From: Oscillospiraceae bacterium
GTDB taxonomy: Bacteria; Bacillota; Clostridia; Oscillospirales; Oscillospiraceae
DNA length: 64,000 nt
NCBI GenBank assembly: GCA_015067435.1
Contig: SVMM01000017.1
Location: forward strand, 1-64,000
Direction: 5' to 3'
The notes below the pieces were generated by a model, which saw nothing but the letters and a program-made list of their open reading frames with translations, was not told where the DNA came from and did not search any database. Below, piece after piece: positions 13,385-54,285 of this stretch; position 1 is the first letter of the stretch, and each line of letters opens with the position of its first letter. The position numbers and the translations under genes were made by a program.

Positions 13385-14581
13385 CTATTTGTTGACCAGC
13401 AGCTTTTTCATCGACTGCTCCAGCCCGTCCACCGTCAGCGGGTACATATCGACGAGCTTCTGGATCACGCCGTAGCTCTGCCCCCAGTAGGGGCCCCAGC
13501 TCGGCTCGCCCTCGGGATTGAGCCAGACGAGGTGGTCGTACTGCTCGCGGAAGCGCTTGAGCCAGTCGAGGCCGGAGCGTGCCTCCTCCCCCGTCGCGCC
13601 GTACCAGCGCTTGCCGGTCAGCTCGTACATGTCCATCAGCGCGTCGCCGACGAGGATGACCTTGTACTCGCCGCCGAAATTCTTGAGCAGCCACTCCGTC
13701 GGCACCGCGTGGCTGCGGTACATGCGCGGGTCGGTGTAGACGGCGGAGTAGATGCAGTTGTGGAAGTAGTAGACGTGCAGCTCCTTGAACTGGTTGGCGC
13801 GCTCCGCCGCCTGAAAGAGCATGGAGCACAGGCGCGAGTAATATTCCATCGAGCCGCCGGAGTCCATCAGCATCAGCACCTTGACGGTGTTGCGCCGCGG
13901 GCGCTTGTACCGGATTTTGAGCGTGCCCGCGTTGTCGCAGGTCTCGCGGACGGTGCCGTCCACGTCGAACTCCGTGCGCTCGCCGAGCGTCTGGTCCGAA
14001 TACTGGCGCAGCAGGCGGAAAGCCATCTGAAATTGCCGGATGTCAAGGATATTGTCTTTACGGAAGTCGCGGAAGCGGCGCTCGCCCGCGACCTGAAACG
14101 CGCGCCTGTGGCGGCTGACGCCGCCGACGCGGATGCCCTGCGGCGCGTAGCCGCTGTGGCCGAAGCTGGAAAAGCCGCCCGTGCCGATCCAGTACGAGCC
14201 GCCGTTGTGCTCCTCGGTCTGCTCGCGCAGCCGCTCCTCAAACTGCTTCAGGATCTCGTCGATGCTCTTCTCGTCGTAGCCCTGCGTGCGCAGGAACGCG
14301 CGGAAGTCGTCGAACGCCTGCTCCGGATGGTCGAGCCAGCGCAGCAGCTCCTCGGGCAGCTCGTCCTCGAAGGGGACGCCGTCGAAGTATTCGAGGAACA
14401 CCTTGTCGAACTTGTCGTAGTCCGCCTCCGTCTTGACCAGCACCGCGCGGCAGAGCTGGTAGAATCCGGTCAGGCTCGTGTGCTGCAAATCGAGCGTCAG
14501 CGCCTCCATCAGCGTCATCCACTCGTTCAGCGATACGCCGAAGCCGTGCACGCGCAGCAGATAGAAAAACCCGATAAACAT
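13385..14581 (-). CDS. CoxE-like VWA domain protein
   Basis: This 398-residue protein has a helical N-terminal half (MFIGFFYLLRVHGFGVSLNE, typical of the CoxE-like group) and a C-terminal von Willebrand A fold beginning at VKVLMLMDSGGSMEYYSRL (about residue 237), where DSGGS is the MIDAS metal-binding motif. Later VWA strands include FKELHVYYFHNCIY and EYKVILVGDALMDMYEL. CoxE-like proteins normally work with a MoxR-type AAA+ ATPase as a remodelling chaperone pair, but none is beside it; the only AAA+ protein in the run is the CIS ATPase at 22051. It starts 10 bases after the STAS gene and is the last gene before the terminator. A chaperone role for the CIS is inference. Confidence 0.8.
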   Translation of the reverse strand: MFIGFFYLLRVHGFGVSLNEWMTLMEALTLDLQHTSLTGFYQLCRAVLVKTEADYDKFDKVFLEYFDGVPFEDELPEELLRWLDHPEQAFDDFRAFLRTQGYDEKSIDEILKQFEERLREQTEEHNGGSYWIGTGGFSSFGHSGYAPQGIRVGGVSRHRRAFQVAGERRFRDFRKDNILDIRQFQMAFRLLRQYSDQTLGERTEFDVDGTVRETCDNAGTLKIRYKRPRRNTVKVLMLMDSGGSMEYYSRLCSMLFQAAERANQFKELHVYYFHNCIYSAVYTDPRMYRSHAVPTEWLLKNFGGEYKVILVGDALMDMYELTGKRWYGATGEEARSGLDWLKRFREQYDHLVWLNPEGEPSWGPYWGQSYGVIQKLVDMYPLTVDGLEQSMKKLLVNK

Positions 14582-14590
14582 CGTCCGCGC

Positions 14591-14920
14591 TTACGCTTCG
14601 GCGGCGTCCGCGTCCGCCTCCTCCAGATAGAAGATGTCCGTAAAGCCCTTGGTTTCGATGATATCCATGATCGGTTTGGGGACGCGGATCACACGCATCC
14701 GTCCCCGGCTGTTCATCTTCTTCTGCGCGGTGAGCAGAACGCGGAGCGCGACCGAGCAGATGTAGGTCGCGTCGTGCATGTCGAAGATCAGCTCCGTCGC
14801 CTTGTTCAGCACCGGCTTGACCTCGTTTTCCAGCTTTTCCGCGTCGCTGAGGCCGAGGTGGCCGCCCAGCTCGAACGTGACCTTGGAGCCCTCCGCCGTT
14901 TTGTTGATCGTCATAGCCAT
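14591..14920 (-). CDS. STAS-domain anti-sigma-factor antagonist-like protein
   Basis: This 109-residue protein is a single STAS domain, related to SpoIIAA/RsbV. In the conserved loop, YICSVALRVLL aligns with the DSSGLGVIL of SpoIIAA and keeps the phosphorylatable serine position, while the Asp before it is Cys. In partner-switching systems an anti-sigma kinase phosphorylates this Ser and a PP2C phosphatase removes the phosphate. A SpoIIE-type phosphatase is encoded 19 bases upstream, the typical pairing. No RsbW-like kinase with an intact ATP site is in the window. The target could be a sigma factor elsewhere or a CIS component. Confidence 0.85.
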   Translation of the reverse strand: MAMTINKTAEGSKVTFELGGHLGLSDAEKLENEVKPVLNKATELIFDMHDATYICSVALRVLLTAQKKMNSRGRMRVIRVPKPIMDIIETKGFTDIFYLEEADADAAEA

Positions 14921-14938
14921 CTTCCTTTCAACCGGCGC

Positions 14939-16567
14939 TCAGCTCCAGTCGCCCGTCTCCCCCTTGGGGCCGTAGTACCTCAGCGCCAGCATCGTCGTAT
15001 CCTCGTTTTGCGGGGTTTCCTTGGAGAAGTCATGCAGGATCTGCTTCATGGATTGCAGCAGCACGCTGGGCGATGCGTCCGGCGCCCGGTTGAGTGCCTC
15101 AACGATCCGGTCAATGCCGAAGAGCTCTTCCTTTTCGTTGACGCGGTCGGTCACGCCGTCGGTGTAGACAAACAGCGTGTCCCCCGGCATGAGCTGGAAT
15201 CCGTGGTCGCGGAAGCGCACGCCCTCCATCACCGCGATGCCGGGATTATGCTTGTAGATCTGAAGCTCAAACTTCTTTCCGGCGCGGCGCAGCGCGGGGT
15301 GTTCCTCTCCGGCGTTCGCGGCGATCCCCTTGCCCGTGGACAGCTCCAAAATGCCGAACCAGGACATGGCGAACATATCCGCCGCGTCGCTCTCCAGCAT
15401 CTGCTCGCTGACGCTTTGCAGGACCTCCGCGGGAGAAAAGCCCTGCAGCGCGCGGTTTTTGATAAGCGTCTTGACCATGACCATGAACAGAGCCGCCGGA
15501 ACGCCCTTGCCAGCCACGTCGCCAACGGCGAGGCCGAGATGGTCGTCGTCGATGAGGAAAAAGTCGTAGAAGTTGCCGCCGATATCCTTCGCCGGCTCCA
15601 TGGTCGCCATGATGTCGAACTCCTTGCGATCCGGGAACGCCGGGAACCTGTTGGGCAGCATGTCCTCCTGGATCTGCCGCGCGACGCTCAGCTCCGCGCC
15701 GATGCGCTCCTTCTCCGCGGTCACGCGCGCCACCTGATTGGTGTACGCCTCGATACGCGCCGTCATGTCGCCGAAGGAGGTCGCCAGGTTCTTGATCTCA
15801 TCGTCCTTCTTAAACTTGTCGATGTTGAGATTGAGCTCTCCGTGATTGTAGTCGATCACGCTGCGGTTCAGCCTTTCGATCGGCGAGATGACGTTAACCT
15901 TCAGGAAGCGCAGCGTCAGGACCAGCACGATCGTGATGAGCAGCAGGAAGGCGGGGATGATGCGGATCTCGATGGAGTTCAGGTTGTTTTCGATGTCCGG
16001 AATCAGATAGTCGATCTCCACCATCGCCTGCAGCTTGCCGTCCTTGTCGAAAACCGGCGCCCATGTTTCCAGCCCGGCGCCGAACTCGACCGAGGCCATC
16101 AGCGTGACATCCTCGTGCGCCTTGCCCGCCTTTACATCGGGAACCAGATAGGTATACTCGTACTCGGTATATTCGAAATCCTGTCCCCACTTCGCGATGT
16201 CTGCCGGATCATCATCAGGCGTACGGGCTTCATAAAGATATGTCAGGCTGGTTTCGCCGGGGACGAACAGATACAGATATCCTGCCGTGGAAAAGTTTGA
16301 CTTGACGCTGTCGTAGAACGCGAACAGCTCCGCGCTGTAGTCGTCGAACTCGCCCGTTTTGACATAGTGCTCCAGCTTCTCCCAGTCCGTGCTGTCGGCA
16401 ACGATGTGCACCAGCTCCTGTGCGCGCTCGTTGTAAAAGCGCAGATAGGTGGTTCGCATCGCCGTGTAGCTGACGACACCGACGGAGATCGCCATCAGGA
16501 GCATCATGATCAGCATGATCAGCGTGATACGCCGATTCAGGCCCTGCTTAATCCCACTCTTCTTCAT
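14939..16567 (-). CDS. Membrane HAMP-SpoIIE-type PP2C phosphatase
   Basis: This 542-residue protein has a membrane helix (about 14-35), an extracellular sensor region (about 36-202), a second helix (203-222), HAMP (about 223-275), a short coiled-coil linker and a SpoIIE-type PP2C domain (about 315-535). Most metal-binding motifs are present: GDVAGKG at 349-355, YTDGVTD at 468-474 and EDTTML at 522-527. One oddity is GGNFYD at 330-335, where the family usually has GGDFYD. I start at ATG 16567 because GGGGAGGAATGGC precedes it. It is probably the active phosphatase for the STAS protein encoded 19 bases downstream, so an external signal would set STAS phosphorylation. Confidence 0.88.
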   Translation of the reverse strand: MKKSGIKQGLNRRITLIMLIMMLLMAISVGVVSYTAMRTTYLRFYNERAQELVHIVADSTDWEKLEHYVKTGEFDDYSAELFAFYDSVKSNFSTAGYLYLFVPGETSLTYLYEARTPDDDPADIAKWGQDFEYTEYEYTYLVPDVKAGKAHEDVTLMASVEFGAGLETWAPVFDKDGKLQAMVEIDYLIPDIENNLNSIEIRIIPAFLLLITIVLVLTLRFLKVNVISPIERLNRSVIDYNHGELNLNIDKFKKDDEIKNLATSFGDMTARIEAYTNQVARVTAEKERIGAELSVARQIQEDMLPNRFPAFPDRKEFDIMATMEPAKDIGGNFYDFFLIDDDHLGLAVGDVAGKGVPAALFMVMVKTLIKNRALQGFSPAEVLQSVSEQMLESDAADMFAMSWFGILELSTGKGIAANAGEEHPALRRAGKKFELQIYKHNPGIAVMEGVRFRDHGFQLMPGDTLFVYTDGVTDRVNEKEELFGIDRIVEALNRAPDASPSVLLQSMKQILHDFSKETPQNEDTTMLALRYYGPKGETGDWS

Positions 16568-16606
16568 GCCATTCCTCCCCACACCACACAAGCCGGCACT
16601 CTCGGC

Positions 16607-17164
16607 TTACAGCCGATGCACCTGTATCTGAGCGCCGCAAACGCAATTCTTTCCGCAGATGGGGCACTCCAGCCCCAGCTGATCCAAGCCCTGATAGAAC
16701 ATAGGGATCGTTTCTTCAAACACGACCTCGCCGTTGCAGAGGAACGCCTTACGGGACGGGATCGAGCCGTCGGGGTGTACCCACGCCTCCGTGATGAACA
16801 GCTTTCCGCCGCGCCGGCGCGCGTGCTCGCTCACGCGGCGCGAGACCTCCATGCCGATGCCGCGGCGCTGGTGGTTCGGGGAGATGAAGATGGCGTCTCC
16901 CGTGATGATCTTCTCATCCCCCGCAAGCTCGGCGATCCGCTGCTCCAGCTCCGGATGCGGAACGGTGAACTCAATGATGTCATCCACATAGGTGTAGAAA
17001 CCGACGATCTCACCGTCCTCCACCGCCTTGACGCCAAAATAGCGCCCCTCGGCATCCTTGCGGTGGATCTCCTCCTTGATCGCGCTGCCGTGGGTCAAAT
17101 ACTTTTCCGCAAGGTCAGCGATCTCGTCATAATCCTCAGAAGTCGTATCCATATACTCTATCAT
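16607..17164 (-). CDS. GNAT N-acetyltransferase with a cysteine-rich tail
   Basis: This 185-residue GNAT-fold protein has the acetyl-CoA-binding loop in FISPNHQRRGIGMEVSRRV (about residues 93-111; the Q/RxxGxG/A-type motif is RRGIGM). The C-terminal 19 residues contain CPICGKNCVCG, four closely spaced cysteines that could bind one metal ion. GNAT proteins acetylate amines of proteins or small molecules; the substrate is unknown. It sits between the propeller-MFS gene (31 bases upstream) and the phosphatase gene (40 bases downstream), so it belongs to the signalling tail of the CIS run. Confidence 0.8.
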   Translation of the reverse strand: MIEYMDTTSEDYDEIADLAEKYLTHGSAIKEEIHRKDAEGRYFGVKAVEDGEIVGFYTYVDDIIEFTVPHPELEQRIAELAGDEKIITGDAIFISPNHQRRGIGMEVSRRVSEHARRRGGKLFITEAWVHPDGSIPSRKAFLCNGEVVFEETIPMFYQGLDQLGLECPICGKNCVCGAQIQVHRL

Positions 17165-17194
17165 ATGCTTTCCCTCCGATATCCTCGCTCTAGC

Positions 17195-20164
17195 TCAGCG
17201 GTAGTCCTTGCCGTGCTTGTACATCAGAACAATAAATATGCCGATCAGCAGCAGCATCACTTCGCTGAACATGGCAATTCCCTTCACATAACCGAGTGCC
17301 AGCAGCGCACCGTATGCCACCGGGCCGATCGTCTGCCCGAGACTCTCAAAGACGGAGTAGACGCCCATGGCGCGCCCTTCGCCAAACTTGGAGGTCTCCG
17401 GCGTCAGCTCAAAGTAGGTGTACTGGCAGGTATAGGCAAACGAAATGATGAGCGAAAGAACAACAACGCCCGCGATGACCGTCCCCAGCGAGGGGAAGAA
17501 AACGAACATCAGCATGTTGACGCCCATCGCGGCGCTCGCCGCGAGGATGCTCCAGAACGCGCCGAGCCGCTTGATCATCCAGGAGGAGAGGAACGGCCCG
17601 ATGTAGAGGACCAGCATGCCGCAGGCGAGATAGATCTGGCCGATTCGCACCTCGTTGATGCCGTTCTCCTCCGCAAAGAGCGGGAAGAAATACTCTCTGT
17701 AGGAAAGCGCCATCATAAAGGGCACCAGAACCAGTGCGAAGAATCCGAGCACGCGGCGGTTGAACAGGAACTCGCGCAGCGAGATTCCCTTCACCTCCTC
17801 CGTCTCGTCCGTCTGCTTCTTGCCCGGAAGCACGTTGCCGGAGGACAGGGCGAGCAGCAGGCCGAGGCCGATGATGATCGCGCCGACCAGATAGATCAGC
17901 CGCCAGCCGCCCATGGACAGCAGCATCGAGGCAAGGCCGGCGCCGATGGTCAGGCCCGCCAGCGTTCCCGCCGAAACGTCGGCGCTCGCGTCGGCCATCA
18001 GGGCGCTCGAACCGCCCGTCGCCGCGACGGAGTTGCAGGAGACGTAGATCGTGCCCATGCCCGCGCCGATGAGCATCTTGCCGAGCAGGATACCCGTGTA
18101 GCTGCCGAGAATCAGGCAGATCAGGAAGCCCGCCATATTGACCAGCATACCGCCGGAAATGACGCGTCGGCTGCCCATGCGCTCCACGAGACGGCCCGCA
18201 AACAGGGAGAACATTGCCATCATCAGAAGCTGCGCGGACATCGGCAACGCGATCGCCACGCCGTCCGCGAACGGAAGTCCGCCCTGATAGAGCTGACTGC
18301 ACAGGATCGCAATGAACGCGTCCTGCATGGAATCCGCCAGATAGATCAGGAACATCAGCGTGCGCAGCGGCACAAGCTGTGTGGTGTCCAGATCCACCGC
18401 GCTCCGCCTGCGCTGGATGTGTTTGAGCAGGAAGGTCAGCTCCAGCAGCAGCATCGTCACAACGACCGTGCTGATCGCGGTGTTGATGATCATCTCCCAA
18501 CGCAGCTTCGCCTGGTTGCGCTGGATCACGTCGAGGCTCTGCCCGACCTCCAGCTCCGCCACGATCTCGCCGGATTCGTTGACGATCGGCCGCAGAAGGA
18601 ACGTCCACGCGCCGTAGTTGCTGATTTCGGAAACCAGCAGCTCCTCGCCGGTGTGCAGCACGGCCGCGTACTCGTTCAAATCCGGATCATCCTCATAGAC
18701 CGGGTAAGTACACGGCAGCGTGTCCTCGTAGTCCATGATATAGACGACCTTGCCGTCAATGGCGCGGTAGATCATGTAGTAGTAATAATCCTCGCGCTCA
18801 TACGCGGTGTTGATCGTTTCGTCCAGCGGCGCCTTGATCGCCGCGTACCGCTCCGTACCGTAATCCGAGGGCTGGTCGATCATGCTGATCGCCGTCGTGT
18901 CGATCTTGCCCGAAAGCGTGTCGGCAATGAGGCTGACCTGCTTTTCACTCGACAGCGTGTTGCTGTCCATGATCTTTGAAAGCATCACATAGGACACGAC
19001 AAACGAGACGATTAGGGACGCCGTGACGATCAGAATGACGCGCATGACATTCTCGTCGCTTCCCGCCAGTGAAAGGATCTTTGTCGACAGCTGGAAGATC
19101 AGATACAGCGCGATCAGCCCGCCCAACGCAAGCGCGATCCACAGCATCACGGTCTTGGCAAAGCCCGCGTTTGCCGCCGTATCGACATAGTCCTCGATCT
19201 CGCCGTTGAAATTCTGGTCGCCCGTCAGCCTGTAGTAGCCGGCATAGTTCGTGATCAGCACATTGCGGCCGTCCTCGGACACGCCCATCTTATAGTCGAG
19301 GTCGTCCATGGCATGATAGATGCCCATATTGGACGGGTCGTCCGCGGAAACGTGCCAGATATTCTGCCCTAGCAGCTCCGTGAAGTAAAACTCACCGTTT
19401 TTGGCGTCCATATCGAACACCATCATGCCGCTGAGCTCCTCCAAAACCTCCTGTCCGTCCGTATTGCCGTCGAAGATGCACACCTCGCCGTTCCGGCTTG
19501 CCACCGCAAGCGTGTTGGTGCGCACATCGTAGGCCGCGTCGGTCTTCTTGATCGAATCGAACAGGATGGTCAGCGCGCAGGCGAAGGTGCCGTCCGGCTC
19601 CATCCGGTAGACCTCGACGCCCTCGATCGTATCGATCGTGAAATACAGCGTGTCATTATACACCTGCAGCTCCAGAATGCGCCCGTACTGAAGCGGGGTA
19701 TCCTCCGGCTGCGCCTTGGTATAGTCGATCTCCATGAGAACCTGACTCTCCGAGCCGTTGAGCTTGATGATGCGCTCCCAATCCAGCAGGTTGCCGCGCT
19801 CGCCGTATTTGATATCCGCGACGTAGATGCTGCCGTCCTCCGCCTGCGCGGCATGGCAGGCGTAATAAAACGGCGTGTCGTCACCGCCGCCGTCGTAACG
19901 GCGGATCAGCTTACCCTCTTCGTTGATGACAAGAAGCGTCTTCTTGCCGTTGTCGATCACCAGCGTCTGCCCGTTCTGTCCGAAGCTGACCTCGCTCGTG
20001 GACTCAATCGAATAGGTTGCTGTCCGGGACAGCATATCCCGGTTTAAAAAGACGATGCCCAGCAGCAAAACAGCGGCCAGCACCATCGCAATCGTGCGGA
20101 TAATGGTGACCTTTTTGGATTTCTTTATCGGTTCCTGATTCGTTGTATTTTGCGTATTGCTCAT
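17195..20164 (-). CDS. Beta-propeller / sensor / MFS-transporter fusion membrane protein
   Basis: This 989-residue protein has an unusual layout: a membrane helix at about 19-40; an extracellular propeller-like region at about 50-330 with repeated strands such as GSIYVADIKYGERG and NTLAVASRNGEVCIFD; two helices at 338-357 and 375-395; an extracellular sensor-like domain at about 400-555; a helix at 560-580; and a full MFS-type 12-helix domain from about 597 to 985 (motif-A-like GRLVERMGSRRVISGG). The TM/propeller/two-TM/sensor/TM plan is the same as that of the pseudo-cyclase protein at 28844-31429, but the output domain differs. It could be a transporter gated by an external ligand, or a receptor built on an MFS fold. 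It lies 54 bases after the pseudophosphatase gene. Confidence 0.75.
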   Translation of the reverse strand: MSNTQNTTNQEPIKKSKKVTIIRTIAMVLAAVLLLGIVFLNRDMLSRTATYSIESTSEVSFGQNGQTLVIDNGKKTLLVINEEGKLIRRYDGGGDDTPFYYACHAAQAEDGSIYVADIKYGERGNLLDWERIIKLNGSESQVLMEIDYTKAQPEDTPLQYGRILELQVYNDTLYFTIDTIEGVEVYRMEPDGTFACALTILFDSIKKTDAAYDVRTNTLAVASRNGEVCIFDGNTDGQEVLEELSGMMVFDMDAKNGEFYFTELLGQNIWHVSADDPSNMGIYHAMDDLDYKMGVSEDGRNVLITNYAGYYRLTGDQNFNGEIEDYVDTAANAGFAKTVMLWIALALGGLIALYLIFQLSTKILSLAGSDENVMRVILIVTASLIVSFVVSYVMLSKIMDSNTLSSEKQVSLIADTLSGKIDTTAISMIDQPSDYGTERYAAIKAPLDETINTAYEREDYYYYMIYRAIDGKVVYIMDYEDTLPCTYPVYEDDPDLNEYAAVLHTGEELLVSEISNYGAWTFLLRPIVNESGEIVAELEVGQSLDVIQRNQAKLRWEMIINTAISTVVVTMLLLELTFLLKHIQRRRSAVDLDTTQLVPLRTLMFLIYLADSMQDAFIAILCSQLYQGGLPFADGVAIALPMSAQLLMMAMFSLFAGRLVERMGSRRVISGGMLVNMAGFLICLILGSYTGILLGKMLIGAGMGTIYVSCNSVAATGGSSALMADASADVSAGTLAGLTIGAGLASMLLSMGGWRLIYLVGAIIIGLGLLLALSSGNVLPGKKQTDETEEVKGISLREFLFNRRVLGFFALVLVPFMMALSYREYFFPLFAEENGINEVRIGQIYLACGMLVLYIGPFLSSWMIKRLGAFWSILAASAAMGVNMLMFVFFPSLGTVIAGVVVLSLIISFAYTCQYTYFELTPETSKFGEGRAMGVYSVFESLGQTIGPVAYGALLALGYVKGIAMFSEVMLLLIGIFIVLMYKHGKDYR

Positions 20165-22012: not shown

Positions 22013-22050
22013 GTTCCCTCTCTCCTTATTTGAGGCGTTCCGGATCATCC

Positions 22051-42441: not shown

Positions 42442-42454
42442 TACCCGTCCCTCC

Positions 42455-46200: not shown

Positions 46201-48127
46201 CTGATGTGCGCCCGACCGCAGTCCGCGCCGCCATATCTTCTGCGGCGGTCTGCGCCGCCGCACTCTGCGTCTCCTTTTCCGACGCATCTGCGGCATCGCG
46301 ACGCGTCATGGTCGTCTGTGCAGCCTGCCGTGGCTCCCGCGCCGCTGTCTCCGTGCGCTGTTCGGGCGGGACGGCGTTCTGCGCCTCCGGCGTCTCCGGC
46401 GTCTCCGCGCGATAGACCAGCTCCATCGCCGCTTCCGGTTGATCCGGACGCGCCGTCACCGCCGGCACGGCTGTCGCGTGTTCCGATGCCGCCGCGATTT
46501 CCCGTCCTTGCGCCGCTTCGGCGCGCGGCTCCCGAGCCGATGTGGGACGCGCCGCTGTATCTTCCGCGGCGGTCTTCGCCGCCGCGCTCTGTGTCTCGGT
46601 CTCCGACCCCTCTGCGGCATCGCGACGCGTCATGGTCGTCTGTGCAGCCTGCCGTGGCTCCCGCGCCGCCGTTTCCGTGCGCTGTTCAGGCAGGACGGCG
46701 TTCTGTGCCTCCGCTGTCTCCGTGCGGTAGACCAGCTCCGCGGCCGACCCCGGTTGCCCCGGACGTGCCGTCTCCGCCGGCACGGCTGTCGCCGATTGAG
46801 GCTCCTGCCGTTCGAGCGGTTCGCCGTCCGATGTGCGTTCGACCGCGGCCCGCGCCGCCGTATCTTCTGCGGCGATCCGCGCCGCAGCGCTCTGTGTCTC
46901 GGTTCCCGACGCATCCGCGCTCTCGCGCCGCGCCGTCATTTGTGCCGCTTCCGTGATCTCATGCCGCATCACGGTCGTCTGCGGCTGCTCGTCCTGCTGC
47001 CGCTCCCGCGCCGCTGTCTCGCTTCGCTGTTCGGGCAGAACAGCGTTCTGGGCCTCCGGCATCTCCGTGCGGTAGACCAGCTCCGTGGCTGTCTCCGGTT
47101 GCTCCGGACCCGCGGCGTATGGCGTCGACACGGCGTCATGCGCGGCGTCGGGCCGAACAGCCGCCGCAGACCGCTGCTGCGCTGTCTCGCTCGTCAGGCG
47201 GTTCAGGTTGCGCTCGATGGTGTCCTGCACCGCGCGGCGCACCGCGCGCATCGCGCGGGACGTTTCATCGGTTTCGGGCAGCTGCTCCGCGGCCCACTCG
47301 ACCACGCGCTCCAGCTCGTCGTCGAAGCTCTCCGACGCACCCTGTGTTTCCCGGCGCGCCAGCGCCTCCTCCCTGCGACGGCGGATCACGTCCGGCAGCA
47401 GAATGCTGCCCGCCGGTACGATCTCCTGCTCCGTTGCGGCGGCGCTGGTCGGATAGCCCGGATGCGTCTCGCGCTGCTTCGGTGTCCAGCCTCCCGCGGC
47501 GGGTACGGACATGGCGCGGCTGGCAAGGGGAAGCTCCGGCGTGGGCAGCGTTCGCCCGCCCTGCCGCGTCCCCGTCAGCCCATGCGTGGACTGCGCCAGT
47601 CCCGCAGAGCGGCGCAGCACGTCCGATTGCTTCGTGCTGCGTCCCTCTCCGGCCTGCCGCTCCGTCCTCATTTGAGCCTGTGCGGGATCCGCCTTTTGTG
47701 CGCCGCCGGCCGGCGCGATGATCTCCGTGCGGTGCGCGCCGTTCTCGATGACGATGCGGCGCGTCTCCTGCGTGATGATGCGAAGCTCCTTTTCCCGCAG
47801 GATCACGCGCTCCAAGATCCGCTGCTCCGGGGACTTCTTCTCCTTCTTGTCCTCCTGCGGGCGGTTCTTTTCCTCCTCCTGACGCAGCCGGTTCACAAGC
47901 AGATTCACGTCCAAATCGAAGTGGATCTCCGGCGCCTGCTGCGGCGCGGCCTCGGCGTCCCCCTCCTCCAGATAGGCAAGGCGCAGGGGGCGATAGTTGC
48001 CGATGCCCTGTGCGCTGCGCTGCAAAAGCTCCTGCGTGAACAGCTGTGTCAACAGCCCAAATGGGGACAGGGTATTCTCCTGTCCCGCGACGGTCATATC
48101 CTGTTTGCTGATCGCAATGGAATCCAT
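43220..48127 (-). CDS. Giant repeat protein between tube and LysM genes
   Basis: This 1635-residue protein has three parts. The N-terminal ~300 residues are charged and helical (LTQLFTQELLQRS, RLRQEEEKNRPQEDKKEKK). The central region has at least eleven ~100-residue repeats, each built on AELVYRTETAEAQN, PEQRxExAAREPQQAAQT and a QSAAAQTAAEDxAAR segment (bases about 44030-47100). The C-terminal ~150 residues contain a divergent twelfth copy (PVDLVFAAG), LPKWARELF and a helical end. Composition is Ala, Glu, Thr, Arg and Gln with few hydrophobics, so much is disordered or loosely helical. ATG 48127 overlaps the tube stop (TGATG). Candidate roles are tape measure or ruler, as no other tape-measure candidate of suitable length was seen, or an assembly scaffold. 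Confidence 0.8.
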   Translation of the reverse strand: MDSIAISKQDMTVAGQENTLSPFGLLTQLFTQELLQRSAQGIGNYRPLRLAYLEEGDAEAAPQQAPEIHFDLDVNLLVNRLRQEEEKNRPQEDKKEKKSPEQRILERVILREKELRIITQETRRIVIENGAHRTEIIAPAGGAQKADPAQAQMRTERQAGEGRSTKQSDVLRRSAGLAQSTHGLTGTRQGGRTLPTPELPLASRAMSVPAAGGWTPKQRETHPGYPTSAAATEQEIVPAGSILLPDVIRRRREEALARRETQGASESFDDELERVVEWAAEQLPETDETSRAMRAVRRAVQDTIERNLNRLTSETAQQRSAAAVRPDAAHDAVSTPYAAGPEQPETATELVYRTEMPEAQNAVLPEQRSETAARERQQDEQPQTTVMRHEITEAAQMTARRESADASGTETQSAAARIAAEDTAARAAVERTSDGEPLERQEPQSATAVPAETARPGQPGSAAELVYRTETAEAQNAVLPEQRTETAAREPRQAAQTTMTRRDAAEGSETETQSAAAKTAAEDTAARPTSAREPRAEAAQGREIAAASEHATAVPAVTARPDQPEAAMELVYRAETPETPEAQNAVPPEQRTETAAREPRQAAQTTMTRRDAADASEKETQSAAAQTAAEDMAARTAVGRTSDAETAERQESATATAVPAETARPERPEPASELVYRTETAEAQNAVLPEQRTETAAREPRQAAQTTMTRRDAAEGSETETQSAAVQTAAEDTAARTAVERTSDAETLEWQEPQSATAVPAETARPERPEPTAELVYRTETAEAQNAVLSEQRRETAAREPQQAAQTTARRNAADASEKETQSAAAQTAAEDMTARTAVGRTSDAETAERQESATATAVPAEAAHTEQPEPVAELVYRTETPEAQNTVLPEQRREAAAREPQQAAQTAARRESADASEKETRSAAAQTAAEDIAARTAFERASDTETLERQKPQSATAVPAETARPERPEPTAELVYRTETAEAQNTVPPEQRAETSAREPQQTAQTAVTQREAAGEPENETQSAAVQTAAEDTAVPAAVERASDTETAERQEFATATAVPAETARPERPEPVAELVYRTETAEAQNTVPPEQRREAAAREPQQAAQTAARRESADASEKETRSAAAQTAAEDIAARTAFERASDTETLERQKPQSATAVPAETARPERPEPTAELVYRTETAEAQNTVPPEQRAETAAQEPQQSAQTAAGRRESADEAQTTAQRDHAAALADEMTAKHADTQKAATAVPMETARAERETPTELVYRAETPEAQDAATPERRADAAREAQRSAQTQASAARHESAEAARSAVHREAAGETQTTESGVRTGTSEGETAAENADMQKTATAVPAEAERAEPEAELIYRAETAETRDAAMPERRADTAAQTPRQSGRTHTAMQPRTDTAAQTTAADHAAQAGRLSAGALRTAVPAAETLRQPIGLALRTDGAMPTAAAQMQLGTATRDIRFGARQRSGEAAHRTAAQAVPAQAAETAGSPVDLVFAAGAAAQESAAEPAQAKRAETAASDFVSNLPKWARELFDQSGRGTGAHSAADAARAADTAGKQIVWNAPAVIPAQSDTTAGPAKLEFKERPEKDTADEYYRKQASDAELQRTADKVYRLIEDRLRRELRRSGR
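44030..47100 (-). repeat. Tandem ~300-base coding repeats in the giant CIS protein
   Basis: Units of about 300 bases recur eleven times or more. Some neighbours are nearly identical over two units; for instance, the run starting at 44607 reappears at 45210, 603 bases (201 codons) later. Such DNA should undergo slippage and unequal recombination, changing repeat number in steps of about 100 residues. Confidence 0.9.
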
Positions 48128-48558
48128 CAAAAGCACCCGTTATAGATGAGCTCTATGCGGCTCACCGCCAACGCAGGCTGATTGCTGTTGAGATCCGGCC
48201 CGATGTACTTTTGCAGATATGCGCCGACGATCGTCCACGTCCTCTGCGGCGTACCAAAGCTGTCCATCAGGATGACCGTCCCGCCGAGGGGGATGGACAT
48301 GCCCGATGCACACATCGTCATCAGCAGGGAAACGGAGTCAATGGTCGTGACCACGCCCTGCTCCAGCACCAGCACCTGCGGTTTGTTCTCTTTAAAGAAA
48401 AATCGGGGGTAGTTCAGGCCGCCCTCATTGTAGACCTCGTACTCGACCTCCATATTGAGGCCGCTGACAGAGGTGAACCGGCCCGCGATCACCGCGCCCG
48501 GTCCGGCAAGCGCCACATCAAAATAAGCCCCCGACAGGAAATCTCCAGTCAACCCCAT
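48127..48558 (-). CDS. CIS tube-type protein (gp19-like), copy 3
   Basis: This 143-residue protein is of the T4 gp19-like tube/tube-initiator group: GAYFDVALAGPGAVIAGRFT, VSGLNMEVEYEVYNEGGLNY and a strand-rich end (PALAVSRIELIYNGCF). It lacks the FLDW-type loop of the main tube protein and is probably a tube-initiator or adaptor ring at the baseplate. ATG 48558 has GAGGTG eight bases upstream. Its stop overlaps the start of the giant repeat-protein gene. Confidence 0.82.
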   Translation of the reverse strand: MGLTGDFLSGAYFDVALAGPGAVIAGRFTSVSGLNMEVEYEVYNEGGLNYPRFFFKENKPQVLVLEQGVVTTIDSVSLLMTMCASGMSIPLGGTVILMDSFGTPQRTWTIVGAYLQKYIGPDLNSNQPALAVSRIELIYNGCF

Positions 48559-48577: not shown

Positions 48578-49066
48578 TTATTGGCCTTCCTCCGGCGGAT
48601 GGGTAATGCGCTCCATGCCCGTGATGGCGAAGGTCATGCTTTCGGAAAGCACCTCGCTCCTGCCGCCGTCCATCGGGGTCAGCTCGTAGCCGATGGGCAT
48701 GGCGTCCTTGAGCGACCATGTGACGCCCGGCTTGCCCGCCTCGTTGAGCGCGATCACGTTGAGCGTCCGGCGCATGTCATCGCCGCCGCTCGGCCCCGCG
48801 TTGTGCGACGCGCCGGCGGAAAACAGCCAGTCCAGAAAGTCGTTGTCCCCGACCACGCCCTTGGTCAGCGTGACGGGCGCAAAGGATGTGAGCGTCGGGA
48901 TATACTCCTGCACGCCCCTGTCCTCGCCTCCGGATCGCGCCTGAATGGTCTGCACCTCCATCTTGACGCCGGAAAACTGCGTAAAAGCCGCGGCGATCAC
49001 GCCGCTGCTTTCCACTTCCACCAGAAATCGGAATGATCTGAACGGTTGCTGATACTCGATACCCAT
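48578..49066 (-). CDS. CIS tube-type protein (gp19-like), copy 2
   Basis: This 162-residue gp19-like tail tube protein has PFRSFRFLVEVESSGVIAAA, TQFSGVKMEVQTIQ, LTKGVVGDNDFLDWLFSAG and a C-terminal ITGMERI strand. It shares the overall layout of the major tube protein at 49711 (DNDFLDWLF compared with DTDFLDWIY) but is clearly diverged. It is probably the tube-initiator (Afp5-like). A short DUF6760-type gene precedes it. Confidence 0.87.
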   Translation of the reverse strand: MGIEYQQPFRSFRFLVEVESSGVIAAAFTQFSGVKMEVQTIQARSGGEDRGVQEYIPTLTSFAPVTLTKGVVGDNDFLDWLFSAGASHNAGPSGGDDMRRTLNVIALNEAGKPGVTWSLKDAMPIGYELTPMDGGRSEVLSESMTFAITGMERITHPPEEGQ

Positions 49067-49081: not shown

Positions 49082-49264
49082 TCATCGGAATTCGATCGAC
49101 CGGTTCTGCTCCGGGCCGCTCAGCTTTTGGTTGACCGCGGAAACCTCGGAGCACCAGCGGCGTCGTTCGAGATGGCTCAGTCCCATCACGTCGTTCCGGG
49201 ACCAATGCAAATAGTAAGACAAAAACGTCATTTCCTGATAGAGCTGATCCTGCGGATACAGCAC
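49082..49264 (-). CDS. DUF6760-type small tail-assembly protein
   Basis: This 60-residue protein fits a small family encoded between tube genes of eCIS loci, here named DUF6760: LYPQDQLYQEMTFLSYYLHW, then LSHLERRRWCSEVSAVNQKL. GTG 49264 is the only in-frame start that gives the family's expected N-terminus; its ribosome site is weak, so it is probably coupled to the preceding gene, whose stop ends five bases earlier. With its upstream neighbour it resembles the split tail-assembly chaperones of phages. Confidence 0.68.
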   Translation of the reverse strand: MLYPQDQLYQEMTFLSYYLHWSRNDVMGLSHLERRRWCSEVSAVNQKLSGPEQNRSIEFR

Positions 49265-49269: not shown

Positions 49270-49629
49270 CTACGTTAATAAAAAATCCAGCGGCACCTCG
49301 ATCTCCTGGTTGCAATGCGGGCAGACGACCTTGTAGGTCGGCATCTCCGACATGTTGATGCGCTGGTAAAGATCCTGCAAATAGGCAAGATCCATTGTGA
49401 AAAGCCCTTCGATCACGCGCGTGTTGATGCTGCTGAGCGTGCCCAGCTTCGTGATGACGCGCGAGAGCAGGATGATCGTCAGATATCCCGCGTTCTGCTG
49501 CACGCGGGGATCGCGCATGGGCAGGATCTCGTCCGCCGCCGTCGCGAGGCGCATGGTGCCGCGCTTGTGTACGTCGCCGTTTTTGTCGACGTAGCCCTTG
49601 GGCAGCTCAAACTCAAACTCAGTCTCCAT
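49270..49629 (-). CDS. Phage tail assembly chaperone-like protein
   Basis: This 119-residue protein opens with FEFELPKGYVDKNGDVHKRG and TMRLATAADEILPMRDPRVQ, the pattern of the small 'phage tail assembly' proteins found beside DUF6760 in eCIS loci. Near the C-terminus VVCPHCNQEIEVPLDF has one CxxC pair, a half zinc-ribbon. It is expected to bind tube or tape-measure subunits before assembly. It follows the hairpin at 49651-49697, so its expression is probably lower than that of the sheath and tube. Confidence 0.72.
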   Translation of the reverse strand: METEFEFELPKGYVDKNGDVHKRGTMRLATAADEILPMRDPRVQQNAGYLTIILLSRVITKLGTLSSINTRVIEGLFTMDLAYLQDLYQRINMSEMPTYKVVCPHCNQEIEVPLDFLLT

Positions 49630-49710: not shown

Positions 49711-50190
49711 TCAGATGGGGGACGGCTCGCCGGCTGCGGAGCCGGGCGTGTGCTCAAGACCCTCGTGGCAGAACTCCAGAGACTGGATCGCCACTTCTCC
49801 GCCCATACCGTTGAGATCGGGTACCGTGTAGCCGACCGGCCACGCGTTGATCAGGTTCCAGGACGGACCGGGGTTGCCCGCGTCGTCGATAAGGGTGATG
49901 GTGACGTTGTGGCGTACCATGCCCGTCGGGGGCGCGGTGTTCGTCGGCGCAACGGCGTAGATCCAATCGAGGAAATCGGTGTCGTCCGAAACACCCCAGC
50001 GAAGCGTAACATTGCCGAACTTGGTCAGGCCCGGCAGCTTGCGCGGCGTGTTGCGCAGGTCGTCGCCCTCGCGGTACTCCACGGCGTCGACGGAGGAGCT
50101 CATACCGGAAACCTCAGAGAAACCGGCGCGGCTGATACCATCGATTTCGACCTGATAGCGAAATACTCTGTAGGGATAATTGATTGCCAT
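49711..50190 (-). CDS. Major CIS tube protein (gp19-like), copy 1
   Basis: This 159-residue gp19-like inner-tube protein (Afp1/Pvc1 type) has NYPYRVFRYQVEIDGISRAG, FSEVSGMSSSVDAVEYREG, LPGLTKFGNVTLRWGVSDDTDFLDW and the C-terminal AIQSLEFCHEGLEHTPGS. Its position directly after the sheath and before the hairpin at 49651-49697 marks it as the main, highly expressed tube subunit. AAAGGATG lies upstream of ATG 50190. Confidence 0.93.
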   Translation of the reverse strand: MAINYPYRVFRYQVEIDGISRAGFSEVSGMSSSVDAVEYREGDDLRNTPRKLPGLTKFGNVTLRWGVSDDTDFLDWIYAVAPTNTAPPTGMVRHNVTITLIDDAGNPGPSWNLINAWPVGYTVPDLNGMGGEVAIQSLEFCHEGLEHTPGSAAGEPSPI

Positions 50191-50233
50191 CTATTCTGTC
50201 ATCCTTTCTGTCGATTATAGAATCCGCGTCGGA

Positions 50234-52003
50234 TTACTCGCTGGCGGTCTTCTGCGTGATGCGGAAGATCACAAATTCAGCGGGCTTCACGGGCGCGATG
50301 CCGATCTCGCAGATCAGCCGGCCGTTATCGATGTCGTCCTGCGTCATCGTGGTGGGACCGCACTCGACATAGAACGCCTGATCCGGGCTGGTGCCGGCCA
50401 AAGCGCCGTCTCTCCAGCAGGTCGCGAGGAAGGTCTCGATGGTGCGCTTCACGCGGCCCCAGAGGACCTCGCTGTTGGGCTCGAAGACGACCCAGTTCGT
50501 GTTCGCGCGGATGGACTCCTCCACATAGATGAACAGACGGCGGACGTTGAGGTACTTCCACAGGCCGTTGGAGCTGATGGTGCGGGCGCCCCAGACGCGG
50601 ATGCCGCGGCCGGTGAACGCACGGATCAGGTTCACGCCGATGGGGTTGAGGATATCCTGCTCGCCGGTGTTGTAGTTGCAGCTCAGACCCGTGCAGCCGC
50701 GGACGACCTCGTTGGCGGGCGCCTTGTGCACGCCGCGCTCGTTGTCGCTTCTCGCGAAGATACCGGCCATCGCGCCGGAGGGCGGGAAGAAGTCGGAGCG
50801 CTTCGCGCCGGCGTCATACATCTGCAGCCACGGATGATACATCGCCGCATAGGTGGAATCGTACATGTCGCGGAAGTTCGCGACGTCGTTGGGCTTCTTG
50901 AGGTCGATCGGAGCGTCGAGAATGGCGAAGCAGCTCTTCTTGTTCTCGCAGAAGCCGATCAGGCCCGCCTGGACCTCGGGAGCCGTGACGCCCGGGACCG
51001 CCATGATGGAGACATTGGCGTTCTCCAGGAACGCCTGCATGCCGGTGCGCTTGCCGGGGCCGTCGTCCTTGCCGAGATAGGCGTCGGGCGTCGGGGCGCC
51101 GCCGTCGGAGCCTCCGGCCGGGGCCAGAATAATCATGCCGCCGGTGCCGCCGCACAGCTCGTACGGGGTGATGCCGCCGGCGGGAGCCGCCGGTGCCGCA
51201 GCCTCTTCCTTCTTGCCCTTGTCGTCCTTCTTGTCGTCCTTCGGCGCGGCAGCCTTCGTCGCCGCGGGCAGGATCTCGACCTTGATAAGGTCGCTCTTCG
51301 CGGTGCGGATGGGCGCATAGTTCAGCGCGTCGGGCTTGAGGGACAGGTTCGCGAAGGTCTCGACGGAGTCGTCGAGGCGAGCGGTGATCGTGACCTCGCA
51401 GGTGCGGATGAACTTGGGCGTGCCGACCTTGGTGTCAGCCACGTCCAGCGTGCAGGGCGCGTCGATCGTGACGACCTTGTCCAGCACGCTCTTGATGGTC
51501 GCAAAAGCGCTCTTGTTGCCGTCGAACAGCTCGACCACGTCGCCGGCGTTGAAGCCGTCGGCGTTCTTGAGCGTCAGATCGGCGCCGTTGACGGCGAAGA
51601 CCTGCGTCTTCGCCTTGTAGGAAGGCTCGACGGTGATGCGCATGTTCTCCGACCATGCGCCGGGGCTCGCCGCCGTGACCTTCAGCACGCCGGAGGTAAC
51701 GGTGCCCGCCTTCGCGTCGCCCGGAACCGCGCGCATGATGTAAGCGCGGGAACCGCCGTTGGCGAAGAACTGCTCCACGGCATAGGGGAGGAATCTGGCG
51801 CCGCCGTAGCCCGCCTCGCTGAGGTATCCTCCGTACATGCGCTTGTAATCGGCAAAGCTGGTGACAAGCTGCGGCTCGCCGATTACGGGACCGCGTTCTG
51901 CGAGGCCGATGAAGCCCGCCGTGCTGGTGCTGACTCCCTGCATGGGAACCGCACCTGAGTCAAACTCCTCTACGTACACGCCTGGGGACAAATACTCTGC
52001 CAT
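50234..52003 (-). CDS. CIS tail sheath protein
   Basis: This 589-residue contractile sheath protein starts with the family hallmark MAEYLSPGVYVEEFDSGAVP. It ends with the conserved C-terminal domain (GIRVWGARTISSNGLWKYLNVRR, FLATCWRDGALAGTSPDQAF, IGIAPVKPAEFVIFRITQ), which forms the handshake between sheath rings. A surface-domain insert at about residues 120-285 includes a low-complexity K/D/E/A-rich linker (KDDKKDDKGKKEEAAA). It is the only sheath gene here, whereas Afp and PVC have two or three. The ribosome site directly before ATG 52003 is weak (AAGCGAG); an excellent one lies further up in a structured leader. Confidence 0.95.
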   Translation of the reverse strand: MAEYLSPGVYVEEFDSGAVPMQGVSTSTAGFIGLAERGPVIGEPQLVTSFADYKRMYGGYLSEAGYGGARFLPYAVEQFFANGGSRAYIMRAVPGDAKAGTVTSGVLKVTAASPGAWSENMRITVEPSYKAKTQVFAVNGADLTLKNADGFNAGDVVELFDGNKSAFATIKSVLDKVVTIDAPCTLDVADTKVGTPKFIRTCEVTITARLDDSVETFANLSLKPDALNYAPIRTAKSDLIKVEILPAATKAAAPKDDKKDDKGKKEEAAAPAAPAGGITPYELCGGTGGMIILAPAGGSDGGAPTPDAYLGKDDGPGKRTGMQAFLENANVSIMAVPGVTAPEVQAGLIGFCENKKSCFAILDAPIDLKKPNDVANFRDMYDSTYAAMYHPWLQMYDAGAKRSDFFPPSGAMAGIFARSDNERGVHKAPANEVVRGCTGLSCNYNTGEQDILNPIGVNLIRAFTGRGIRVWGARTISSNGLWKYLNVRRLFIYVEESIRANTNWVVFEPNSEVLWGRVKRTIETFLATCWRDGALAGTSPDQAFYVECGPTTMTQDDIDNGRLICEIGIAPVKPAEFVIFRITQKTASE

Positions 52004-52010
52004 GTTCTCG

Positions 52011-52060: not shown

Positions 52061-52112
52061 ATTTTATCGTTTTTTTGTGGTCGCCATTTATCGTGATTTT
52101 TTGGCTACAGAT

Positions 52113-52502
52113 TCATAGGCCGGACAGCCTGCCCCAAAAGTGCGCCATCACCTGCGCGCTGTAGGCAAGCGTCTCCGACAGCCGCTCCTCCGCGCCGAAC
52201 ACGTCGTCCAGCTCAGCGCGGCAGCGGTAAACGAGGCCGCCGTCCTCAGCCGGGAACATCGCGCCCCGCACCAGACGGCTGTTGATCTCTCCGCACAGCC
52301 GCAGCGCCTTCGCCGCGTCGGCGGGGTGGAACGGATACCGCGCGTAGACCAGCAGGGCGCCGGGCGCTGCGCGGCAGGCGGTCTCCCAAAGCATCGCGCC
52401 GTGCTGCAGCCGGAAGCGGAGCCATCCGTCCTCCTCCGTCCACGAAGCGCCCTCCCTTTCGAGCAGCGCTTTGACGAGATGCATCACATCTTCTTCTTTC
52501 AT
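52113..52502 (-). CDS. YbjN / type III chaperone-like small protein
   Basis: This 129-residue alpha-beta protein has helix LVKALLEREG, a beta-sheet core and INSRLVRGAMFPAEDGGLVYRC followed by a long helix, the order seen in YbjN and type III secretion chaperone folds. Such proteins bind unfolded segments of partners. I start at ATG 52502; the longer reading is Arg-rich shadow sequence. It directly precedes the sheath gene by 110 bases. A second protein of the same general type ends the cargo operon at 61958. A chaperone role for sheath or cargo is inference. Confidence 0.6.
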   Translation of the reverse strand: MKEEDVMHLVKALLEREGASWTEEDGWLRFRLQHGAMLWETACRAAPGALLVYARYPFHPADAAKALRLCGEINSRLVRGAMFPAEDGGLVYRCRAELDDVFGAEERLSETLAYSAQVMAHFWGRLSGL

Positions 52503-52516
52503 CGAAGCTCTCTCGG

Positions 52517-52894
52517 TCAAATGTTCAGCGGAGCCGTCGCGCCCAGTACGCTGAGGCTGCCGAACGCGGGTGCCTCCGTCAACGCGGGCGCACCGCCGCT
52601 CCATTCGGTCGGCGCGGCGGCGCCCCCATCACGCGCGGCTGGATACATTGCCGTCTCCGGTCCGGTCCGGTGCAGCGCATACATATCCAGCAGCGCGCCG
52701 TTGCCCATGGTATGCGAAAGTGCCAGGATCCCATCCGCGGGAAGCTGGTCCCAGCTCCCGCCCGCGAGGATCGCCTCCAGTGCAAGCGAAGCGGGATTCT
52801 TGATCTCACTGCTCTGCCTGCGGCTTTCCTCCGTCTGGTTCCGGCTCTGTGTTGTTTTCTTTGCCGGGTCCGTCCTGCGCTCCGTCTGGAGCAT
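52517..52894 (-). CDS. Small protein overlapping the upstream coiled-coil gene
   Basis: This 125-residue protein has a charged N-terminus, then a core that reads like real protein (NPASLALEAILAGGSWDQLP, GILALSHTMGNGALLDMYAL) and a Gly/Ala/Pro-rich end. The only good start, ATG 52894 with AAGGAGG upstream, lies 89 bases inside the preceding gene. A gene this size in the gap is otherwise needed to explain the open 300 bases. The family is not recognised. A later start or frameshift-fed translation from the upstream gene is possible. Confidence 0.55.
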   Translation of the reverse strand: MLQTERRTDPAKKTTQSRNQTEESRRQSSEIKNPASLALEAILAGGSWDQLPADGILALSHTMGNGALLDMYALHRTGPETAMYPAARDGGAAAPTEWSGGAPALTEAPAFGSLSVLGATAPLNI

Positions 52895-53921
52895 TGTTCT
52901 CCGAACCTCCTTCGGCCTCCGGCACGTCGTCGGGCGCGTCTATGGGCATTTCCGCAAGCATATCCTCCCCGAACGCGCTTTGGGTGATCTCATCCAGCGT
53001 GTCGGGCGCCTCCAGCTCCGCGAGCGTCTCCGTGGCGCGGTCCGAGATAAAGCGCAGCTTGTTGATGAACTCGTTTTTCATCTGCGCCTTTTTTGCCTTC
53101 AGTGCCTGCGCCTGTACGAGCGCGTTTTGCAGGATCGGCTTCTCCCGCGCGTCGGTGCAGGCCGAGAGCTTTTGGCGGTATTCCGCCTCCAGCTCGTTCT
53201 CGCGGCTGACGTCCAGAAACGGGTACATCCTGCGCATCGTCTCGCTGTCTCCCGCGCCGCTCAGCTCGCCCGTGCCCTGCGCCATCTCAGTCATGGAGTC
53301 CACCACGCGCCGCGCGTCGCGGAGCGTGTCCACCACGACGCCGAGCGCACTCTTGGCGAAGCCCCTGTTGAACACCATCTGGTCCGGTGAGTGCCCTGGA
53401 ATGTTGCGCACCTGGCTGCCGGTTCCGAAAACGCTTTTCTGCTGGATGCGCTTCGGCCCGCCCTCTCCCGCCGATCTCTTGAGGCAGGAAACCAGCATCA
53501 TCTTTCCCGTGCCGTTGAGCACGGAGCCGAACATCGTCCCGCGCTGGAACGCGGTTTCGGAGAATCTGGTCATCGTCGAGGGCGTGTTCCCCGTCCAGAG
53601 CTTCTGCTCTCCGCCCGCCGATCCGGCGGTCACCCGGCTGCGCAGCCCCGTGTCGTCCCGCAAGCCCAGCGACTCGCGGATGCCCGGACGCTCCGCCTCG
53701 CGCTCCCGCTCCCGCGTCTCCTCCTCGGCGGCAACCGCGTCGCGCGCGTGCTTCTGCCCGATCCGGTCGAAGGTCTGCTGAAAGTTTTCGGTCACATGAT
53801 AGAGCGGATCGCGGTGCCGGAGCTTTTCCGAGCCCGCCGCCCATGCGAGCTCCTCCTCCGTCGACCGTTTGGTCAGCGGCACGGGCTCCGCGGTCTTCCT
53901 TCTGCTCTTCCTGATCTGCAT
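52806..53921 (-). CDS. Coiled-coil-rich protein at the head of the CIS run
   Basis: This 371-residue protein has a basic N-terminus (MQIRKSRRKTAEPVPLTKRS), a charged helical segment (EEETREREREAERPGIRESL), a middle with predicted helices and an acidic, disordered tail (about 320-371, rich in D, E, P, G and N). No membrane segment or signal peptide. The upstream pseudo-receiver gene ends one base before this start, and no clear ribosome site is present, so translation is probably coupled. Family not recognised. Early position in the run suggests a regulator or assembly factor. Confidence 0.65.
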   Translation of the reverse strand: MQIRKSRRKTAEPVPLTKRSTEEELAWAAGSEKLRHRDPLYHVTENFQQTFDRIGQKHARDAVAAEEETREREREAERPGIRESLGLRDDTGLRSRVTAGSAGGEQKLWTGNTPSTMTRFSETAFQRGTMFGSVLNGTGKMMLVSCLKRSAGEGGPKRIQQKSVFGTGSQVRNIPGHSPDQMVFNRGFAKSALGVVVDTLRDARRVVDSMTEMAQGTGELSGAGDSETMRRMYPFLDVSRENELEAEYRQKLSACTDAREKPILQNALVQAQALKAKKAQMKNEFINKLRFISDRATETLAELEAPDTLDEITQSAFGEDMLAEMPIDAPDDVPEAEGGSENNAPDGAQDGPGKENNTEPEPDGGKPQAEQ

Positions 53922-53922
53922 A

Positions 53923-54285
53923 TCAATCGTTAAACAGCCGATCCATCGCCACGCGGAAGCGTCCGTCCTCCACTGGCCTGACGAGATAATCGGTCAGGTG
54001 GATGCGCAGCGCGCGAATGGCATAGCGGTCGGTATCGTCCACCAGGATCACACGGCAGCCGTTGTCCGCCTCGCGCACCCGGCGGGCGCACAAGAAACCC
54101 TTCGTATCCCCGTATCCCACGACAGCCCCGTGAAAGCGCCCCGGCTCGAACTCGCGCCAGAGCTCCTCCTCGGACAGGAAGGGCTTTACCTCGGCGTCCC
54201 TGCGCAGCTCCGCGGCATACGTTTTCATTCTCAGGCAAAGCCGATGCGTCTCTTCCGCATCGACGCCGCACACCGCTACCCGCAT
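53923..54285 (-). CDS. Degenerate response-regulator receiver protein
   Basis: This 120-residue protein has the CheY-like layout (MRVAVCGVDAEETHRLCLRM; DNGCRVILVDDTDRYAIRAL; IHLTDYLVRPVEDGRFRVAM) but no output domain. The phospho-accepting Asp strand reads HGAVVGYGD, and the conserved Lys of the DYLxKP motif is Arg. It therefore should not be phosphorylated. ATG 54285 has GAGGGGAG upstream. It is the first gene of the 41-kb run and probably a protein-protein switch rather than a classical regulator. The receiver fold resembles those of the LytTR regulators at 62481 and 63191. Confidence 0.7.
   Translation of the reverse strand: MRVAVCGVDAEETHRLCLRMKTYAAELRRDAEVKPFLSEEELWREFEPGRFHGAVVGYGDTKGFLCARRVREADNGCRVILVDDTDRYAIRALRIHLTDYLVRPVEDGRFRVAMDRLFND

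Follow-up and report, generated by a model that had tools for sequence, protein, structure and literature searches.

The extracellular contractile injection systems (eCIS) Afp, PVC and AlgoCIS carry a sheath, tubes, gp25 and J-type baseplate proteins, a Pvc16 protein, an AAA ATPase and nearby eCIS_core genes. The same set was found in and beside a run of 33 minus-strand genes on contig SVMM01000017.1 of an Oscillospiraceae bacterium (assembly GCA_015067435.1); the window, that is, the whole stretch of DNA analyzed, comprised the first 64 kb of this 87-kb contig of a 3.34-Mb genome. In contrast to the eCIS, no tail fibre was recognised, and a module of four membrane and signalling genes was present instead, encoding a kinase-like protein, a cyclase-like sensor, a tail-anchored protein and a MORN-repeat protein. 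In other CIS, the genes just downstream of the baseplate set are described as those for tail fibres or, in Streptomyces, for CisA; the module was located directly downstream of the baseplate genes as well. The cytoplasmic contractile injection system (CIS) of Streptomyces with CisA likewise has no recognised fibre (eLife 2025); CisA, however, is one single-pass protein, whereas the present module comprises four, among them the kinase-like, cyclase-like and MORN proteins. For AlgoCIS, a second receptor, as yet unidentified, has been proposed (PMC13314943).

The likeness to the type VI secretion system would lie in docking at the producer's membrane, which we infer for the present machine, whereas no Pfam match to the membrane-complex families (TssJLM) was obtained in the 32 of 33 genes scanned. 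SpoIIE/STAS partner switching (RsbU/RsbV), of which Bordetella BtrUVW is an example, is paralleled by SpoIIE-type phosphatases and by a STAS protein in which Ser occupies what we take to be the phosphosite; in contrast to partner switching, neither a sigma factor nor a separate RsbW-like gene was recognised in the run. The four-gene module was not reported in the literature surveyed, which was covered in part (PMC8213781, PMC12237407, PMC9230969, PMC10598620, PMC12998442, PMC13314943), and Chen et al. 2019 may describe related loci.

We propose, with a probability of roughly 0.5, that the CIS is docked at the membrane of its producer and triggered by a change of shape. What fires an injection machine is an open question, and the locus offers a candidate trigger in the form of a compact linked gene set in named isolates. 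The hosts are, by their record titles, largely gut Clostridia and so indicate a CIS family in these bacteria, despite the depletion of eCIS from mammalian and avian microbiomes reported in the survey by Geller et al. 2021.

Injection gene set and four-gene module

Pfam was applied to 32 of the 33 genes, NCBIfam and PHROGs to ten each. The sheath, three gp19-type tubes, a LysM-bearing tube initiator, the spike, gp25 and two J-type baseplate proteins were matched, as were Pvc16, DUF4280 (which we take to be PAAR-like) and an AAA ATPase with a WHD domain (presumably Afp15-like). The hub fell just below the cut-off, the tail I-like protein below it, and CIS13 was matched in its N-terminal part only, far below the cut-off. 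Among solved CIS sheaths, those of Afp, Pvc and others resembled the sheath of the run, with 9ezm as the top match; it was also similar to the solved sheaths 8bky/9gtp, which we assume to be of Streptomyces origin. By its gene content (sheath, tube, gp25/J baseplate, spike, AAA ATPase, Pvc16 cap and DUF4157-type eCIS_core genes at the locus), the set belongs to the eCIS lineage; the whole machine that the initial annotation had seen in the run was recovered by its sheath, tubes, baseplate, cap and ATPase. No tail fibre was matched by Pfam in the 32 genes or by PHROGs in the ten, and an unrecognised fibre is possible. The 1635-aa repeat protein, in a frame extending to 48136, contained eight 300-base repeats with 82% matches at 44501–46932; the length at this place varied among clusters from 275 (G006) to 1635 aa, and the protein may be the tape measure.

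The four genes lay between CIS13 (32206) and Pvc16 (25336). A CIS13 alignment from four genomes yielded 77 loci in named records, 60 of them close (CIS13 at least 39% identical over more than 80% of the length); module counts were restricted to loci with enough downstream sequence. Among the close loci, BLAST found the cyclase-like gene in 55/55, MORN in 48/48, Pvc16 in 45/45 and the kinase-like gene in 55/58. The tail-anchored protein stood between the cyclase-like and MORN genes in 38 of the 53 loci where both flanks were found, and 38 of 39 such proteins (38 loci plus the window) carried (S/T)P-x-Q. Close carriers included members of Faecalibacterium, Agathobaculum, Flavonifractor, Oscillibacter, Anaerotruncus, Lachnospiraceae and Desulfosporosinus, and by record titles included the isolates Agathobaculum massiliense, Anaerotruncus colihominis, Oscillibacter valericigenes and strains of Flavonifractor and Faecalibacterium. 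The other 17 loci (L111–L127: Fusibacter, cyanobacteria, methanogens and others) gave no kinase-like, cyclase-like or MORN match, some of them with about 3 kb of downstream sequence only.

CIS13 and the kinase-like protein were also searched for in 345 genomes of the order. CIS13 was matched in 30 (19 above 40 bits, 11 only below 30 bits). The kinase-like protein was matched in 10, always adjoining CIS13: eight matches were full-length beside close-type CIS13, and two were partial (G241 and G385, the latter on the opposite strand); G266, with a close-type CIS13, had no such match. The order contributed nine and the class five of 14 divergent loci that were fetched; of these 14, 13 had MORN near CIS13 (12 on the same strand) and 11 had the cyclase-like gene, placed after the DUF4280 gene in L214 and on the opposite strand in L218. 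The inner genes, from 31.4 to 25.9 kb, were conserved and their order was kept across Oscillospirales, Lachnospiraceae and Desulfosporosinus. Conserved order across families and divergent CIS lineages contradicts chance linkage of the inner module.

Variant neighbourhoods of CIS13 were observed as well. In L215 (4867–8410; genome G795), the usual module was replaced beside CIS13 by a protein of 379 aa that looks secreted and by a relative of the MFS-type fusion (26%). L202 (G281:C17) and L203 (G465) represented a second, compact type of CIS, in which CIS13 was accompanied by a 266–306-aa protein with one transmembrane (TM) segment and by MORN, and with no cyclase-like match. Genome G080, of the same genus and listed as 100% complete, had no CIS13 match and no strong match to the CIS-type AAA protein; the cluster is therefore patchy within the genus.

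The profile of the cyclase-like family matched HAMP-type receptors as well as adenylate cyclases of solved structure (2w01, E 1.4e-5); of its 46 members, Pfam assigned HAMP to 35 and Guanylate_cyc to 3. We placed the metal Asp and the Asn/Arg positions by eye. At the first metal position, Phe was present in 42/46 members and Leu in 4/46, Asp in none; the Asn was kept in 3/46 and the Arg in 7/46, both together in 0/46. A working cyclase in the window's sensor is unlikely given the absence of the first Asp and of the Asn and Arg pair throughout the family. Against 25 true kinases, the kinase-like profile scored P 5.6e-6 over 151 columns; none of the controls (12 shuffles of the columns, one reversal, eight unrelated families) scored better than 0.062. 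Its HRD region aligned to a CAALLSEN-like stretch, the HRD motif itself being absent. Since the first cyclase Asp and the kinase HRD are lost, signalling by the module is probably conformational.

By hydropathy, the sensor has four predicted TM segments, the MORN protein one (residues 81–99) and the 116-aa tail-anchored protein one near its end, whereas the kinase-like protein has none. The coiled-coil part was encoded separately in Desulfosporosinus (L104), as an OEP-like protein whose start looked signal-like by eye, which suggests that the corresponding part of the MORN protein lies outside. The kinase-like protein of G241 continued through a TM segment and ended in a LysM-like part that scored 18.1 bits against a cut-off of 20.9, and the kinase-like frame of G385 gave a weak BLAST match to the LysM protein (E 0.007).

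Proposed docking at the producer's membrane and alternative explanations

In the proposed scheme, the particle would be assembled in the cytosol of the producer and meet a four-protein membrane complex with its CIS13 side; the CIS13-like protein is accordingly proposed as the baseplate side of the dock. The kinase-like protein may serve as the scaffold of the complex and the tail-anchored protein as an adaptor, while the MORN protein would reach into the cell wall. The outer part of the sensor would signal through HAMP to the dead cyclase-like domain, and a change of shape, with no second messenger, would trip the baseplate. The SpoIIE/STAS and LytTR proteins might set readiness or expression. 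The inner module is more likely a part of the machine than of a regulon, because its recognisable domains include no DNA-binding part and have lost catalytic residues, and because it occupies the position of fibres or a membrane adaptor in other CIS; the machine is probably more than a freely released particle. Only tentatively do we extend this to a further CIS mode in gut Clostridia, membrane-docked and sensor-gated, in which the four proteins would replace fibres and a signal from outside would reach the baseplate by shape alone.

Several observations weigh against this proposal. The second metal Asp was kept in 22/46 cyclase-like proteins, that of the window included. None of 46 kinase-like members matched a Pfam kinase, and in a profile search of the PDB non-kinases ranked first, with kinases at E 0.32 to 0.86; the protein is for this reason likely, not certainly, a pseudokinase. 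Proteins of 290 aa from five divergent loci matched the kinase-like profile (P 1.4e-5) and not true kinases (0.25). Three of the 58 close loci had no BLAST match to the kinase-like gene: L107, with a 249-aa frame in place, and L086 and L100, where no frame was present and the gene is therefore dispensable. The module was on the opposite strand in L218, and no module was located near CIS13 in L215. Among 391 genomes of the class, 26 had a CIS13 match and eight a kinase-like match; six of the latter were weak (E 9.9e-4 to 1.8e-17), and none of these six genomes was among the 26. In the four of the six that were fetched, the stretches examined, one of them only 4.5 kb, showed no CIS genes. The idea that the kinase-like domain is exclusive to CIS holds for close members only. 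The eCIS_core cargo fits a released eCIS as well.

The initial annotation had interpreted the interleaving of sensor and structural genes as a sign that the sensors belong to the regulon of the machine and are not chance neighbours. The non-chance linkage stands, while regulon is probably too weak a term for the inner module. Were the role of the membrane and signalling genes limited to sensing conditions and timing CIS production, the particle would be an ordinary released eCIS; SpoIIE/STAS genes and LytTR regulators are typical of gene control, cargo is present, and an upstream motif is kept in part of the relatives. We nevertheless consider this unlikely, as no DNA-binding domain was matched in the inner module, which in close loci stays between CIS13 and Pvc16 and persists without SpoIIE/STAS in A. 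colihominis.

A cytoplasmic system similar to that of Streptomyces, acting inside the stressed producer with the module as a richer counterpart of CisA, would be consistent with two baseplate J proteins, no recognised fibre and the similarity of the sheath to 8bky/9gtp. CisA is, moreover, encoded at the same place. Against this explanation, the descriptions of CisA consulted mention no sensor, no MORN and no wall-facing part, and the best solved sheath match was 9ezm; we regard it as rather improbable. One paper cautions that predictions of how a CIS acts can go wrong when they rest on sequence alone. Mere chance assembly of operon neighbours, which the scarcity of VWA, MFS-type and GNAT genes in related clusters might suggest, is very improbable for the locus as a whole, being contradicted by the inner-module order kept across families and divergent CIS lineages; for the VWA gene (13385–14581) a chance neighbourhood is possible. 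Docking with a trigger by shape change remains the explanation that we prefer.

Outer genes, transcription signals and coordinates

Outer genes were counted in the 15 clusters for which wide sequence was at hand. Downstream on the same strand, a SpoIIE-type gene was found in 14 (in G006 by a 23% match only), a same-strand STAS gene in 8, MFS-type and GNAT genes in 2 each, and VWA in none. No SpoIIE match was detected in the fetched region of the A. colihominis cluster (G134), nor anywhere in the Desulfosporosinus genome (G132). These genes are frequent helpers, not core; the earlier claim that the sensors belong with the machine fits the inner genes and SpoIIE and does not extend to the variable outer set. 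RsbW-like parts were noted, by eye, only in certain relatives. No BLAST match linked the MFS-type fusion to the cyclase-like sensor.

The reading frames of the run extended down to 13385 from 54351, or from an internal start at 54285, the point from which relatives are conserved, with intergenic distances of -89 to +109 bases, the largest between 52113 and the end of the sheath gene at 52003. The one-strand, nearly gapless run described initially was therefore reproduced, and so was the lack of a strong terminator before its end: the 16-pair inverted repeat closing the run had more pairs than the other sites listed for 12.5–32.4 kb, and no comparable terminator was listed inside the run. Terminator-like sites numbered 20 on both strands in 12.5–32.4 kb (12.6 expected) and 12 in 32.0–51.9 kb (11.8 expected). 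The promoter scan gave 8 sites on both strands versus 3.0 ± 1.6 expected. Besides the consensus matches ahead of the first gene, minus-strand matches within coding sequence at 30739, 23304 and 17740 count against a single transcription unit, and internal promoters are therefore possible; judged from these signals, the run is likely a single transcript. Rfam and ARAGORN gave no matches in the window.

Table 1. Coordinates of features in the 64-kb window
Feature	Position	Strand	Basis
Promoter-like sites TTGAAA-17-TAACAT and CTAACA-18-TATAAT	54350–54401	-	Consensus match only
Receiver-like protein	53923–54285 (frame to 54351)	-	Acceptor Asp absent by eye, 9 aligned rows
Conserved protein, no assigned function	52806–53921	-	Match in 11/15 clusters
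Small protein, no assigned function	52517–52894	-	Overlaps both neighbours in frame list; cluster comparison
Small conserved protein, no assigned function	52113–52502	-	No Pfam match
Contractile sheath	50234–52003	-	Phage_sheath_1, 82.8 bits; solved CIS sheaths
Tube protein (gp19 family)	49711–50190	-	Pfam
Tail-assembly-chaperone-like protein	49270–49629	-	phrog_508, E 2.2e-6
Small CIS-linked conserved protein	49082–49264	-	Cluster comparison; no NCBIfam/PHROGs family match
Tube protein (gp19 family)	48578–49066	-	Pfam
Tube protein (gp19 family)	48127–48558	-	Pfam
Repeat protein, 1635 aa, tape-measure position	43220–48127 (frame 43220–48136)	-	Repeats; length comparison
CIS tube initiator with LysM	42455–43192	-	Pfam CIS_tube, LysM
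Baseplate hub (GPD-like)	41344–42444	-	28.7 bits, cut-off 30.1; gene order in clusters
Spike/baseplate V-like protein	40565–41347	-	Pfam
gp25-like baseplate wedge protein	40117–40518	-	Pfam
Baseplate J-like protein	37217–40120	-	Pfam
Second baseplate J-like protein	35083–37152	-	Pfam
Tail I/Gp48-like baseplate protein	33986–35086	-	Pfam below both cut-offs; PHROGs baseplate E 2.3e-5
CIS13-like protein	32206–33996	-	CIS13_fam, residues 10–147, 81 bits, cut-off 370
Kinase-like protein without HRD, probable pseudokinase	31429–32163	-	Profile-profile; no Pfam kinase match
Sensor: four predicted TM, HAMP, degenerate class III cyclase-like domain	28844–31429	-	Profiles, hydropathy
Tail-anchored protein, (S/T)P-x-Q motif	28490–28840	-	Hydropathy, cluster comparison
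MORN-repeat protein, one TM, weakly OEP-like coiled-coil C-terminus	25937–28459	-	Pfam, hydropathy
Pvc16-like cap protein	25336–25923	-	Pfam
CIS-linked conserved protein, no assigned function	24599–25339	-	Cluster comparison
DUF4280 protein	24217–24594	-	Pfam
AAA+ ATPase with WHD	22051–24207	-	Pfam
Membrane SpoIIE-type phosphatase with Cu_amine_oxidN1 domain	20219–22048	-	Pfam
MFS-type transporter fused to N-terminal membrane/extracytoplasmic part	17195–20164	-	Pfam, hydropathy; 2/15 clusters
GNAT acetyltransferase	16607–17164	-	Pfam; 2/15 clusters
SpoIIE-type phosphatase with HAMP, two TM	14939–16567	-	Pfam, hydropathy
STAS protein	14591–14920	-	Pfam
VWA CoxE-like protein	13385–14581	-	Pfam; 0/15 clusters
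Terminator-like inverted repeat, 16 pairs	13344–13379	.	Inverted-repeat scan
eCIS_core protein, cargo-type	55409–57268	+	Pfam, BLAST
eCIS_core protein, cargo-type	57336–58937	+	Pfam, BLAST
eCIS_core protein, two core domains	58984–61902	+	Pfam, BLAST
Two LytTR regulators (first with receiver domain), candidate regulators	62481–63934	-	Pfam, BLAST

The cluster reached beyond 54285, up to 63.9 kb, with three eCIS_core genes divergent from the operon and two overlapping LytTR genes. The N-termini of the eCIS_core trio were similar (88–93% over 171–180 aa), with no BLAST match beyond, and the three are likely an interchangeable cargo set. Three further copies were located on contigs C16, C7 and C31. 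Among 18 genomes examined, eCIS_core was present in 15, and in 11 it was encoded no more than about 27 kb away on the contig that carries CIS13. Relatives of the receiver-LytTR protein (at least 39%) were found near the cluster in 7/15 genomes.

The motif GTTCGTGCC was located upstream of the first gene at 54405–54413 on the minus strand. With 0–1 mismatch it was present upstream in 4/8 relatives, the pattern being derived from the same sequences and thus a lead only. Four further copies occurred in the window, three of them in the repeat gene.

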